From contig CAIQKV010000044.1 in assembly GCA_903872505.1 (NCBI GenBank), forward strand, positions 1 to 64,000: a DNA stretch of 64,000 bases. Reading direction: 5' to 3'. Origin of the DNA: an uncultured Opitutia bacterium (lineage in GTDB: Bacteria; Verrucomicrobiota; Verrucomicrobiia; Opitutales; Opitutaceae). Of the stretch, positions 58,211 to 64,000 are shown one piece after another; position 1 is the first letter of the stretch, and the number at the start of each line of letters is the position of its first letter. The translations under genes were made by a program, and so were the position numbers. The notes beneath the pieces are model-generated. The model was not told where the DNA came from, ran no database searches, and was given only the letters and a program-made list of their open reading frames with translations.

Positions 58211-59878
58211 ATGAAAGTCCCCGCCCTGCAGCGCCTCCGCGCGAAACTGAAGGCCTCGACCCCGGTCTACGGCCTGTGGATCACGCTGGAGTCGCCGAGT
58301 ATCTGCGAAATGGCGGTCGCGCTCGGGCTCGACTGGGTGACGATTGACGCCGAGCACGGCCACCTGGATTGGAAGGAAATCGTCGAGCACGTCCGCGCGG
58401 CGGTGCGCAGCGACACCGTGGTGTTCGTGCGGCTGGCGGAAAACTCCCCGGCGCTGATCAAGCGCGCGCTCGATATCGGCGCCGACGGCGTGATCATTCC
58501 CTGGGTCGAGACGGCCCTGCAGCTGGAGGCGGCGGTGGCCGCGGCGACCTATCCGCCGCGCGGCATCCGCGGCATCGGTGCCGAGCGCGCCACGTGCTGG
58601 GGCCAGTGCTTCATCGAGCACACCGGCGAGGCGGACCAGAACGTCATGGTTATCCCCATCATCGAGTCCGTGCGCGCGGTGAAGAACATCGGCGAGCTCG
58701 CGCGGGTGAAGGGCGTGGACCTGTATTTCTTCGGGCCGGCCGACCTGTCCTCCACCGCGGGCTTTCCCGGCCAGTGGGAGGGACCCGGCGTGGCCGACCT
58801 GATCCTCAAGACCAAGGAGACCCTGCGCGCCGCCGGGAAGCACTGCGGCGTCATCACGACGGACAACGCCAATCTCACCCTGCGCCGCGAGCAGGGGTTC
58901 GCCGCGCTCGGGATCGGCCTCGACGCCGGCCTGCTGCTGCGGAGCATGCACACCGCGCTCGCCTCGCAGGGTCGCGACCGCCAGATCCGCGCCAGCCTCA
59001 CTCTCGAGAACAATGCCGCGGCCCTCGCCGCGGAAAAGCCGGTCAAGTGCGCGCCCCCGGAGATGCGGCCGGACCGCCCCGAGGTCATGACCCCGCGCGG
59101 CAGCGGCCCGCAGCTCGACGTGGCGCCCGGCGTCACGTTCGACTGCCAGGTCGGCGCGCACAACTCGGCGCGCAACCTGACCACCGCCCTTGTCACCTTC
59201 GCGCCCGGCGCGGTGCTGCCGTACCACCGCCACACGTTTGGCGAGTCGATCACGCTGCTGCAGGGCCGCGCCCTCGTCGAGGTGGAGGGTCGGTACTACG
59301 AGGTCGGCCCGCTCGACAATGTGACCATCCCGCGCGGGATCGCCCACCGCGTTTCCAACCTCTCCCGCTCGGCTCCGGCGCTGTTCCACGTTGCGCTGGC
59401 TTCGGCCGAGCCGACCCGCGAACTCGTGACCACATTCTTCCCGAAGCGCACGATGCCCGAGGTCACCGCCACCCGGCCCGGCGCCGAGCGCGTGACCTAC
59501 GTGAAGAAGGTGGAGCGCTACTCGCCGGGGGCGAACGCGTCCTTTGTCGATTACTGCAATTCCGGGCTGGTGCCCGCGATGGAGATGAGCGGCGGCTACG
59601 GGCTGTTCCAGCCGGGCGGCCGCCTGCCGGCGCACCTGCACGACTTCGATGAGTCCATCTGCATCGTGGACGGCGCCGCCACCTGCGTGGTCGAGGGCCG
59701 GCGGCACCACCTGGACAACCTCGCCACGGCGCTGCAGCCGCGCGGCCGCGTGCACTATTTCGTCAACGAGTCCAACGCCCCCATGGCGATGATCTGGTTC
59801 TATGCCGGCCCGCTGCCCGAGCGCCTCGTGGTCGAAGAGAGCTGCGCCGTCGACCCCGGTGTGGCGTGGAGCGCCTGA
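58211..59878 (+). CDS. HpcH/HpaI-family aldolase fused to a C-terminal bicupin
   Basis: Aldolase half VYGLWITLESPSICEMAVALGLDWVTIDAEHGHLDWKEI...FVRLAENSPALIKRALDIGADGVIIPWVETA; cupin 1 VLPYHRHTFGESITLLQGRALVEVEGRYYEVGPLDNVTIPRGIAHRVSN; cupin 2 RLPAHLHDFDESICIVDGAATCVVEGRRHHL. Confidence 0.88.
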   Translation: MKVPALQRLRAKLKASTPVYGLWITLESPSICEMAVALGLDWVTIDAEHGHLDWKEIVEHVRAAVRSDTVVFVRLAENSPALIKRALDIGADGVIIPWVETALQLEAAVAAATYPPRGIRGIGAERATCWGQCFIEHTGEADQNVMVIPIIESVRAVKNIGELARVKGVDLYFFGPADLSSTAGFPGQWEGPGVADLILKTKETLRAAGKHCGVITTDNANLTLRREQGFAALGIGLDAGLLLRSMHTALASQGRDRQIRASLTLENNAAALAAEKPVKCAPPEMRPDRPEVMTPRGSGPQLDVAPGVTFDCQVGAHNSARNLTTALVTFAPGAVLPYHRHTFGESITLLQGRALVEVEGRYYEVGPLDNVTIPRGIAHRVSNLSRSAPALFHVALASAEPTRELVTTFFPKRTMPEVTATRPGAERVTYVKKVERYSPGANASFVDYCNSGLVPAMEMSGGYGLFQPGGRLPAHLHDFDESICIVDGAATCVVEGRRHHLDNLATALQPRGRVHYFVNESNAPMAMIWFYAGPLPERLVVEESCAVDPGVAWSA

Positions 59879-59895
59879 ATTTTTCCCCCTCCACC

Positions 59896-60936
59896 ATGCC
59901 TGCGCCGTTCAACCTGAAACTCACCGGCGACTTCTTCGACGCCGCCGGCAAACCGAAGTACGCGGACATCGGGTTGTCCGCGCTGGCCGATGCGCCGCAC
60001 ATCCGGCAGGCGGCCTTTCCCTCGCACAGCCCGGAGATTGCGCCGGAGCAGCTGGCCGGGGCGAACGGCGTGATCGTGCTGACGCCCAAGGTGACGGCGC
60101 AGTCGGTCTCGCGGGCGAAGGACCTGCTCGCGGTCGGCCGGTTCGGCGTGGGCTACGACTCGGTGGACGTGCCGGCCTGCACGGCGGCGGACGTGGCGGT
60201 GTTCATCACGAGCGGCGCGGTGGACCGCCCGGTGGCGGAGGCGACCGTGGGCTGGATGATCGCGCTCACGCATCATTTTCGCACGAAGGACCGCCTGGTG
60301 CGCACGGGCGAGTGGGACGCCCGCTCGCGTTTCATGGGGAGCGAATTGCGCGACCGCACGCTCGGCGTCATCGGGCTCGGCGGCATCGCCCGCCACGTGA
60401 TCAAGCTGCTGGAAAACTGGGGCATGAATCCGCCGCTGGCCTACGATCCGTTCATCGACGATGCCGGCGCCGCCAAGGCCGGCGCGCGCCGCGTGAGCCT
60501 GGACACCCTGTTGAGCGAGTCGGATTTCGTGTCGATCCACTGCCCGCTGAACGACCAGACGCGCGGGCTGATCGGCGCGGCGCAGCTCGCGCTGATGCGA
60601 CCCGACGCCTACCTCATCAACACGGCGCGCGGCGGGCTGGTTGACGAGGACGCGCTGTACGCCGCGCTCAAGGAGGGCCGGCTCGCGGGCGCGGCGCTGG
60701 ACTGCTATGCGCAGGAACCGGTGACGAAGCCGTCGCGGTTCGCGGACTTGGACAACGTGCTGCTGGCCCCGCACTGCATCGCGTGGACGCACGAGCTGTT
60801 CCGCGACATCGGCCGCACCGCCTGCCAGGGGATGATCGACCTGTCCCTCGGCCAGAAGCCGCGCGGCGTGGTCAACCCCGAGGTTTTCGCCAAGCCCTCC
60901 TTCCAAGAAAAATGGAAACGGATCTGCCCGCGCTGA
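59896..60936 (+). CDS. D-isomer-specific 2-hydroxyacid dehydrogenase
   Basis: RTLGVIGLGGIARHVIKLLENWG; HCPLNDQTRGLIGAAQLALMRPDAYLINTARGGLVDEDALYAALKEGRLAGAALDCYAQEP. Confidence 0.92.
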   Translation: MPAPFNLKLTGDFFDAAGKPKYADIGLSALADAPHIRQAAFPSHSPEIAPEQLAGANGVIVLTPKVTAQSVSRAKDLLAVGRFGVGYDSVDVPACTAADVAVFITSGAVDRPVAEATVGWMIALTHHFRTKDRLVRTGEWDARSRFMGSELRDRTLGVIGLGGIARHVIKLLENWGMNPPLAYDPFIDDAGAAKAGARRVSLDTLLSESDFVSIHCPLNDQTRGLIGAAQLALMRPDAYLINTARGGLVDEDALYAALKEGRLAGAALDCYAQEPVTKPSRFADLDNVLLAPHCIAWTHELFRDIGRTACQGMIDLSLGQKPRGVVNPEVFAKPSFQEKWKRICPR

Positions 60937-60943
60937 ATTTGCC

Positions 60944-61786
60944 ATGAGCACCAAAACCACCAAGCAGCAGGGGACCGGCCGGCTCGCCGGCCGCGTGGCC
61001 TGGATCAGCGGCGCCACGTCCGGCATCGGCGAGGCGGCGGCGGAATTGTTCGCCCGCGAGGGCGCGAAGGTGGCGCTCGTGGGCCGCCGCGTCGAATTGG
61101 GCCGGAAGATCGCGGACCGCATCAACCGGAAGACGCCGGGCGCGGCGGTCGCCCTGGCCTGTGACGTCAGCCAGGAGGCCGACGTCGAGCGCTCGATCGC
61201 CGCGACCGCCAAAAAGTTCGGCCGGCTCGACATCCTCGTCAACAACGCCGGCCTGGTCGAGGTGCGCGACCTGCACGAGTACACCGCGGCGCAATGGGAC
61301 CGCGTGATGGACGTGAACGTGAAATCCATGTTCTTCGCCTTCAAGCACGCCTTCCCGCTGCTGCGCGCCGCGCGGCGCGGCTACGTCGTGAACGTCGGCT
61401 CGATCAGCAGCTTTGTCGGCCAGGCCCGCACCCCCGTCTACACCACCTCGAAGCACGCCATCCTCGGCCTCACGCGCTCGATCGCGCTCGACTACGCGGC
61501 GCACGGCATCCGCTGCAACTGCGTCTGCCCGGGCATCACCGACACGCCGATGCTCTGGGAGCACCTGAACGTCCGGCCCGACCCGCAGGCCGCCCTCGAC
61601 GAGCGCCTGCAGCGCGTGCCGATGGGCGTGCGGCTCACCCCGCTCGACGTCGCGAAATCGATCCTCTACTTCAGCTGCGAGGATTCGGCCGGCGTGACGG
61701 GCACGTCACTGACGATCGACTGCGGCTACCTCACGGCGGCGGAGTGGCAGTGCACCGGCCCAACCCTGTTCCAGGAAAACGCCTAG
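60944..61786 (+). CDS. SDR-family oxidoreductase
   Basis: RVAWISGATSGIGEAAAELFAREGAKVALVGRR; ILVNNAGLVEV; YTTSKHAILGLTRSIALDYAAHGIRCNCVCPGITDTPM. Confidence 0.93.
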   Translation: MSTKTTKQQGTGRLAGRVAWISGATSGIGEAAAELFAREGAKVALVGRRVELGRKIADRINRKTPGAAVALACDVSQEADVERSIAATAKKFGRLDILVNNAGLVEVRDLHEYTAAQWDRVMDVNVKSMFFAFKHAFPLLRAARRGYVVNVGSISSFVGQARTPVYTTSKHAILGLTRSIALDYAAHGIRCNCVCPGITDTPMLWEHLNVRPDPQAALDERLQRVPMGVRLTPLDVAKSILYFSCEDSAGVTGTSLTIDCGYLTAAEWQCTGPTLFQENA

Positions 61787-61790
61787 ACCC

Positions 61791-62636
61791 ATGAAGGCCA
61801 AATTCGCCTGCGCCGACTTCACCTTTCCGCTGCTGAGCCACGCGCACGCGCTGGACCTCATCGCGAACCTCGGCTTCCGGGGCGTGGATATCGGCCTGTT
61901 CGAGCAGCGCTCGCACCTCTGGCCGTCGCGGGAGTTCAAGAATGTCCGCGCGAGCGCCCGGAAGCTGAAGCGCGCCCTGGCCGACCGCGGCCTCGTCGCC
62001 GCCGATATTTTCCTGCAGATGCGGCCGGATTTCACGCCCTATGCGATCAACCAGCCGGACGCCCGTCGCCGGCGGCAGGCGCGCGACTGGTTCCTGCGCA
62101 CGCTGGAGTATGCCGAGGCCGCGGGCAGCCGCCATGTGACGACGTTGCCGGGTGTCGTGTTCGAGCAGGAGGGCAGGGCGGCCTCGCTCGCGCGCTCGGT
62201 GGACGAGCTCGGCTGGCGCGTCGAGGAAAGCCGCGCCGCCGGCCTGGTCTTCGGCGTGGAGGCGCACGTCGGCTCGATCGTCCCGACGCCCGCCACCGCC
62301 GCCGACCTCGTGCGGCGCGTGCCGGGGCTGACGCTGACGCTCGACTATACGCATTTCACGCGGATGGGCGTGCCCGACCGGCGGATCGAGCCGCTGGTGC
62401 GCCACGCGAGCCACGTCCACATGCGCGGGGCGTGCCGCGGCCGCCTGCAGTGCAACCTGCGGCAGAACACCATCAACTACCCCCGGATGCTCGCGGCGAT
62501 GAAGCGGGCCGGCTACCACGGCTGGATCGGCGTCGAGTACATCTGGATCGACTGGGAACACTGCAACGAAAGCGACACCATCGCGGAGACGATCCAGCTC
62601 CGCGACCTCCTCCGCCGGGCCGCGGCGGCGCTCTGA
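61791..62636 (+). CDS. Sugar phosphate isomerase/epimerase-like TIM-barrel protein
   Basis: LDLIANLGFRGVDIGLFEQRSHLWPSREF; LTLTLDYTHFTRMG; HVHMRGACRGRLQCNL; YHGWIGVEYIWIDWE. Confidence 0.85.
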   Translation: MKAKFACADFTFPLLSHAHALDLIANLGFRGVDIGLFEQRSHLWPSREFKNVRASARKLKRALADRGLVAADIFLQMRPDFTPYAINQPDARRRRQARDWFLRTLEYAEAAGSRHVTTLPGVVFEQEGRAASLARSVDELGWRVEESRAAGLVFGVEAHVGSIVPTPATAADLVRRVPGLTLTLDYTHFTRMGVPDRRIEPLVRHASHVHMRGACRGRLQCNLRQNTINYPRMLAAMKRAGYHGWIGVEYIWIDWEHCNESDTIAETIQLRDLLRRAAAAL

Positions 62637-62645
62637 CCATGCCCC

Positions 62646-63287
62646 ATGGCTTCCCCGGCCACCAGGCACCCCGCCGTCGCGCTCCTCGAGATCTACTCGC
62701 TCGGCGCCGCGCTGGTCGTGCTCGACCGCATCGAGAAGGCCGCGATCGTGCGCGTCCTGCAGGCGGAGCTGAACGACTATTACGGGCTGCTGCTCAAGCT
62801 CACGGGCGATTCCGATTCGCTGCGGATCGCCCTGGACTGCGCCCGTGTCGTCACGAAGGAAATGTCGGTGGCGCTCACCGCGGAGGTCCTCGATGCCCCC
62901 GATGCCGGCACCTGGAAGGTGATCGACAGCCCGCCGGAGTACCAGCCGCTGCTTGAACAAGAAGTCATTTTCATCCCTCGTCCCCACCAACTCTCCATGA
63001 CTGAAAAATCCAAAGTTCCCGACGCGCTCGGCCTGCTCGAAACGCAGGGCTTCACTGCCGTCACTGCCGCCACCGACGCCGCCTGCAAGGCCGCCAACGT
63101 GCGCGTCATCGCCAAGGAAAAACTCGGGGGCGGCTACGTCACCGTGATCTTCGAGGGCGAGGTCGCCGCCGTGACCGCCGCCGTCGACGCGGGCCGCTCG
63201 GCTGCCGAGGCGGTCGGCAAGCTGATCTCGGCGTACGTCATCGCCCGGCCCAGCGAGGGCGTCGGTCAGATCCTGACCCGCCTCTGA
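62646..63287 (+). CDS. Two-domain BMC-fold microcompartment shell protein
   Basis: C-terminal half DALGLLETQGFTAVTAATDAACKAANVRVIAKEKLGGGYVTVIFEGEVAAVTAAVDAGRSAAEAVGKLISAYVIARPSEGV is a classic BMC domain; N-terminal half ALLEIYSLGAALVVLDRIEKAAIVRVLQAELNDYYGLLLKLTGDSDSLRIALDCARVVTKEM...FIPRPH is a divergent BMC-like domain. Confidence 0.85.
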   Translation: MASPATRHPAVALLEIYSLGAALVVLDRIEKAAIVRVLQAELNDYYGLLLKLTGDSDSLRIALDCARVVTKEMSVALTAEVLDAPDAGTWKVIDSPPEYQPLLEQEVIFIPRPHQLSMTEKSKVPDALGLLETQGFTAVTAATDAACKAANVRVIAKEKLGGGYVTVIFEGEVAAVTAAVDAGRSAAEAVGKLISAYVIARPSEGVGQILTRL

Positions 63288-64000
63288 TGCCGGTGTCGCG
63301 TCCAGCCCTGAAAACCGTCGCCGGCCAGCCCGGCTGGAGCTTCGCGAGTTCCCGCGCGCAGGCCTTTCTCACGCGGACCGGCGGGCACCTCGCCCCGGTC
63401 GTGTTCAAGCTCGGCCGGCGTTCCGTGCAGCCGTTCTCCATCACGCCGTGGGGCAAGGAGCCGCTGCCGGGCCAGCCGACGATGCTGCGGGTCGCCCGCG
63501 GCGATTTTTTCTGCGTGCCGTTTGGCGGGAACGCGGAGCCCTTCCGCGGTGAGCGCCATCCGCCGCACGGCGAGACCGCCAACCGCGACTGGCGGCTGGA
63601 GTCGCTCGAGCGCGCGGCCGGCGCGGTCACCCTGCACACCTCGATGCAGACCCGGGCGCGCCGCGGGCGGGTGGACAAGAAGCTCACGCTCCGCGACGGC
63701 CACACGGCGGTGTACTGCGAGCACGTGCTTTCCGGTTTCTCCGGGCCGATGCCGATCGGCACGCACCCCATGCTGCTGTTCCCAGACCAGCCGGGCGCCG
63801 GCTACATTTCCACGAGCGCGTTCAAGCGCGGCTACGTGGTGCCGAGTGACTGGGAGAAACCCGAGGCGTGCGGCTATTCGCTCCTGAAGCTCGGCGCGGC
63901 GTTTTCCTCGCTCGCGCGCGTCCCCGCCAGCGCCGGCGGCACGATCGACCTAACCCGGTATCCGGCCCGCCGCGGTTTCGAGGAGCTGGTGCAGCTCGTC
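63287..64000 (+). CDS. Galactose mutarotase-fold-like protein, truncated by window end
   Basis: Open frame from ATG 63287 (overlapping the previous TGA) to the window end: MPVSRPALKTVAGQPGWSFASSRAQAFLTRTGGHLAPVVFKLGRRSVQPFSITPWG...FCVPFGGNAEPFRGERHPPHGETANRDW. Not in ORF track because there is no stop. Confidence 0.65.
   Translation, partial: MPVSRPALKTVAGQPGWSFASSRAQAFLTRTGGHLAPVVFKLGRRSVQPFSITPWGKEPLPGQPTMLRVARGDFFCVPFGGNAEPFRGERHPPHGETANRDWRLESLERAAGAVTLHTSMQTRARRGRVDKKLTLRDGHTAVYCEHVLSGFSGPMPIGTHPMLLFPDQPGAGYISTSAFKRGYVVPSDWEKPEACGYSLLKLGAAFSSLARVPASAGGTIDLTRYPARRGFEELVQLV

Follow-up and report, generated by a model that had tools for sequence, protein, structure and literature searches.

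A single reading frame in this DNA encodes two BMC domains and carries an in-frame ATG, at position 62997, ahead of the second, raising the question of whether the gene makes one shell protein or two. The initial annotation of the locus had left two answers side by side: an unusual tandem BMC-T protein, or a pair of shell proteins produced by internal initiation. The gene lies in a 64,000-nucleotide stretch (the window, by which we mean the whole of the DNA analysed) of contig C44 of a 3.55-Mb genome, and its closest homologues come from Opitutae. The findings described below support the view that a tandem BMC-T and internal initiation hold together, and are not alternatives. Coordinates of the relevant features are collected in Table 1.

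Table 1. Positions of the fused shell gene, its parts and its neighbours in the window
Feature	Coordinates	Strand	Basis or remark
HpcH/HpaI aldolase fused to cupin domains	58211..59878	+	PF03328, PF07883; conserved MKVPALQRLRA start
D-isomer 2-hydroxyacid dehydrogenase	59896..60936	+	PF02826/PF00389; start from conserved MPAPF N-terminus
Short-chain dehydrogenase	60944..61786	+	PF13561/PF00106
Xylose-isomerase-like TIM barrel, directly upstream	61791..62636	+	PF01261
Fused two-domain BMC shell protein (long product, BMC-T type)	62646..63287	+	213 aa, two PF00936 matches
Divergent N-terminal BMC domain	62673..62855	+	residues 10-70; PF00936 26.8 bits
Open, G-poor, low-GC3 initiation region	62967..63027	+	MFE, GC3
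Predicted short product, 96-aa free BMC-H	62997..63287	+	in-frame internal ATG, start model
Canonical C-terminal BMC domain	63024..63251	+	residues 127-202; PF00936 87.3 bits
Downstream gene, conserved, ~381 aa	63287..64000 (continues to C44:64432)	+	overlaps fused-gene stop (TGATG)

Two BMC domains in one reading frame

Scanned alone, each half of the fused gene matched PF00936 above the Pfam cut-off. The C half, whose residues ~118-213 had been read as a single BMC domain, gave the stronger match; the N half, which had been read as a divergent BMC-like domain lacking the pore-loop glycines, exceeded the cut-off of 24.5 and returned an E value of 1.1e-5 in a whole-genome scan. Both readings were borne out at the level of the pore as well, in that the loop of the N half is ELNDYYG, without the canonical glycines, and its equivalent in the C half is KEKLGGGY. 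In the alignment of homologues the N domain is invariant at K31, Q39, A40, E41, N43, D44 and G47, and its pore segment, QAE-ND--G, is unvaried from Opitutae through Planctomycetota L021-L025. Each half also retains an invariant edge lysine (K31 and K148), consistent with both halves tiling in the same sheet. Among Opitutae, the N half had a median dN/dS of 0.20 and the C half one of 0.14, indicating that both are maintained as protein. Since the N half is under purifying selection, the long form is real.

A structure of the single chain (monomer) was modelled with AlphaFold from a 14-sequence alignment, yielding a mean pLDDT of 83 and a pTM of 0.80. The monomer model displayed a BMC fold in each half, including the divergent N half. 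Strands and helices follow the order E-H-E-E-H-E within each half of this model, and hence the domains are not circularly permuted. Residues 113-121, which span Met118, had pLDDT values below 50 and are predicted to form a disordered linker. The best match to the model in the PDB was the tandem BMC protein 6ner (TM 0.7-0.8). With respect to the packing of the two domains against each other, the model resembled the engineered 6ner (TM ~0.8) and not PduT (rmsd ~16 A), an arrangement that could be an artefact of modelling one chain on its own.

Homologues were collected as a set of 15 full-length proteins, to which further ones were added from genome searches, giving 37 distinct fused genes (the window gene and 36 others) distributed over Verrucomicrobiota and Planctomycetota. 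The concern that homologues might be two separate genes, joined here through a frameshift or an assembly error, did not hold: none of the 37 is split, and the fusion of all of them, including one in the single-contig genome G024, rules out such an error. This universality among the homologues found, together with purifying selection, upholds the proposal of a tandem BMC-T. A second homologue group (L066-L076) has a different N domain joined to the same kind of C domain. Profiles of the two N-domain types gave strong matches in 8 and 10, respectively, of the 385 genomes of the class, indicating that the gene is accessory.

In a domain tree, the N domains cluster together and the C domains cluster together across the two phyla. 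The C domains fall together in a single clade among the BMC-H proteins and away from the domains of standard BMC-T, and the N domain stands apart from both BMC-T controls; the fused gene thus does not group with BMC-T domains in this tree, which has a short alignment, long branches that meet and weak resolution, and serves as a guide only. The C domain is a fourth BMC-H lineage, the 'ETQG' type, which occurs only in fused form in the PVM loci examined. We found no free-standing BMC-H of this type in those loci, and the sole free match was an unrelated shell protein of Proteus.

A conserved start codon ahead of the second domain

The initial annotation held that the ATG at 62997 would open a free BMC-H. 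The codon is indeed in frame, and the length given for its product, 97 aa, is corrected here to 96 aa. An in-frame ATG, GTG or TTG was present 3-9 codons ahead of domain 2 in all 37 fused genes, counted in 26 homologues scanned first, for which the span was given as 4-10 codons, and 11 added afterwards. The distance to domain 2 is 9 codons in Opitutae, 7 codons in the related Planctomycetota as well as in two further Verrucomicrobiota, and 3-6 codons in the second homologue group and the distant Planctomycetota L131-L133. As controls we used 17 other tandem BMC proteins, mostly from other phyla, whose codon usage differs, and only one from the window's genome, of which 5 had any start codon in a 10-codon interval, at no fixed position. 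Comparison of 37/37 with 5/17 gave a Fisher p of 1.8e-8, with related genes counted as separate.

As the initial annotation had remarked, no obvious Shine-Dalgarno sequence precedes 62997, where we calculated a duplex energy of +1.2 kcal/mol. The mean Shine-Dalgarno pairing energy of 79 well-defined starts in Opitutae loci was +0.4 kcal/mol, indicating that most genuine Opitutae starts lack such a sequence. We therefore rejected, for Opitutae, the argument that 62997 is not a start for want of a Shine-Dalgarno sequence.

Initiation sites were also scored with a start-site model, for whose second version the training set comprised 45 starts taken from other, unrelated genes in the window. With this model, the internal ATG came top among 172 codon positions in 13 Opitutae homologues and third in the remaining two of the 15. 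In the window, 62997 scored 18.6 (19.1 in another run with a slightly different background), compared to 13.2 for the long-form start at 62646; the other 249 internal ATGs scored no higher than 6.2, and no codon among the 13,351 in the background attained 19.1. The first version of the model, which had BMC-H starts in its training set, gave similar results. Its weakest case was L093, which 5.7% of background positions tied or beat, and which ranked first in its own gene with the second version.

Folding and codon composition point to the same site. The 61 nt around 62997 had a minimum free energy of -1.3 kcal/mol, compared to -21.3 for the same span around 62646. Across 14 Opitutae genes, structure and GC3 both reached their minimum at the internal start or at most 4 codons after it: folding energy was -3.1 kcal/mol at the start codon versus a mean of -11.5, and GC3 fell to 0.47, versus mostly 0.8-0.95 elsewhere. 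In the window gene taken alone, the stretch of lowest GC3 starts at residue 103, in a broad trough that extends past Met118. The mean drop in linker GC3 was -0.21 in 36 family members versus -0.02 in the 17 controls. Taken together, these comparative and compositional signatures of initiation are strong; they favour the earlier suggestion of two products, and the predicted internal start is strongly supported by them.

The identity of the codon speaks further to its function. In three Planctomycetota the internal start is not ATG, being GTG in L024 and L130 and TTG in L025, and the long protein accordingly reads V or L at this position, indicating that it is the start codon, and not a methionine residue, that has been conserved. 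Such substitutions are not explained if the gene encodes a plain two-domain BMC-T protein, in which a conserved Met and an AT-rich stretch would serve only as a flexible linker or to pause translation between the domains and no second product is made. This explanation gains something from the predicted disorder around Met118, from the fact that tandem BMC-T proteins are common (PMC8217296), and from synonymous codon identity, which shows no clear rise at the internal start in the linker (observed/expected at most 1.22, over few sites). It does not, however, account for the strong Shine-Dalgarno-like motifs (pairing energies of -5.4 to -8.5 kcal/mol) in eight homologues (L021-L025, L130, L132 and L071), nor for the standard BMC-T on contig C69 of the window's own genome, whose linker has no start codon and a GC3 of 0.93. 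We accordingly regard it as unlikely. L129 and L131 differ from other Planctomycetota homologues in that their Shine-Dalgarno sequence is weak or absent.

We consider it very improbable that the internal codon is a scar, left from the fusion of two adjacent genes, in which the former BMC-H start survives unused. Although the place of the C domain among BMC-H proteins in the tree makes a free BMC-H its probable origin, the coherence of the N and C domains, each across two phyla, points to a fusion that is probably ancient. The linker has changed in length and sequence, yet the start codon stays close ahead of domain 2, and the GC3 trough has not been erased at a median dS of 0.4-0.8 among Opitutae. 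Finally, we give almost no credence to the idea that the short BMC-H is the sole product of consequence, with the N half no more than a leader or a domain in decay, for although the long-form start is highly structured and the internal start open, the N half has a dN/dS of 0.20 and an invariant pore segment, and 62646, with its score of 13.2, follows closely upon the upstream stop.

Genomic setting of the fused gene

The start of the fused gene at 62646 is separated from the stop of the TIM-barrel gene by 9 nt. This spacing suggests translational coupling, and initiation of the long form is probably coupled to the upstream gene. The genes at 58211-62636 belong to the operon of the shell gene, with which they form a closely packed series, and in Opitutae they are conserved alongside it. 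Together they could constitute a non-phosphorylating deoxy-sugar route that provides lactaldehyde for the PVM compartment. For the part of the downstream gene that lies within the window (63287-64000), searches returned no match to Pfam or NCBIfam. In relatives, this downstream gene adjoins either the fused gene or an inserted shell cassette.

A PVM locus is present in the same genome on contig C69, where class II aldolases, AldDH, PduL and acetate kinase are encoded together with three BMC-P and three free BMC-H proteins, and the standard two-domain BMC-T mentioned above lies nearby. In eight Opitutae relatives a PVM-type BMC-H is located directly 3' of the fused gene, and in some of these eight a larger shell cassette occupies the space between the fused gene and the conserved downstream gene; the window genome, L011 and L016 lack the shell cassette at this site. 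In the Planctomycetota loci the fused gene stands apart from other shell genes. Presence of the PVM locus in the same genome and adjacency to PVM shell genes in relatives point to a PVM shell protein, and the microcompartment in question would be of the PVM, or fucose/rhamnose, type.

Two further observations concern the organization of these loci. In L012-L015 and L017-L020 the fused gene is succeeded by at least one shell gene, and none lies there in L011, L016 and the window, indicating that rearrangement of the PVM locus has taken place within Opitutae. At L009:30-1197, near the PVM locus, a standard two-domain BMC-T adjoins a gene with an RnfC-like N-terminal domain, a neighbour that suggests a redox link.

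Predicted products and their precedents

We hold with good confidence that this is an accessory, often satellite, PVM-type shell gene that gives rise to two shell proteins from one reading frame, the shorter one presumably from the internal start. Ribosomes arriving from the TIM-barrel gene would probably restart at 62646 and produce the 213-aa protein, which is predicted to form a BMC-T trimer with a pseudo-hexameric pore lined alternately by three KEKLGGGY and three ELNDYYG loops. Other ribosomes would enter at the unstructured ATG at 62997 and produce the 96-aa BMC-H, which would assemble into a homohexamer displaying six KEKLGGGY loops. We infer that the trimer and hexamer tiles share edges and could join the same PVM shell, in which case shell permeability could be adjusted through the relative use of the two starts. 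It also seems probable that, across both phyla, this shell gene specifies both classes of tile, the BMC-T trimer and the BMC-H hexamer, within a single frame by means of a selected internal start, so that the cell would set the ratio of pore types translationally.

The nearest precedent is PduB/PduB' of the Pdu microcompartment, an established case in which long and short shell proteins are encoded by overlapping in-frame genes, with PduB' lacking the 37-aa N-terminal extension of PduB (PMC9132943). The predicted short form likewise begins at an internal start codon, and the features that characterize such a case, namely conservation of an in-frame internal start codon (here 37/37) and initiation signals at that codon, are found in the fused gene. 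Whereas PduB and PduB' are the same type of tile, internal initiation would here skip a whole BMC domain and convert a predicted BMC-T to a BMC-H. In text searches of the literature for microcompartment genes with internal starts, PduB was the one relevant case to emerge, and in the main text of two papers that cover PVM (PMC4207490, PMC8217296) we found no fused BMC-T described as having an internal start.

Like standard BMC-T proteins (e.g. PduT), the fused protein has two non-permuted PF00936 domains per chain and is expected to form trimers. It differs from them in the ELNDYYG pore loop of its N domain, in a linker that contains a conserved start codon and, in so far as the weakly resolved tree can be followed, in a C domain that belongs with BMC-H and an N domain that stands apart. 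The engineered BMC-H tandem fusion 6ner, the best match in both sequence and structure, also has two BMC-H-like domains per chain; unlike the window gene, it is man-made with identical domains, and we know of no internal start in it. In the beta-carboxysome, CcmM58 and CcmM35 are long and short forms of one gene, the short form arising by internal initiation, and both are part of the organelle; in contrast to the product of the window gene, CcmM is a scaffold and not a shell tile.

The permeability of a shell is set by the tiles from which it is built, and a trimer and a hexamer translated from one message would, if our interpretation is correct, link two types of pore genetically. Standard annotation would list the long protein alone and so overlook one shell component in every genome that carries the gene. 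If true, the arrangement also suggests a route by which a fused BMC-T tile could arise from a BMC-H without loss of the BMC-H itself.
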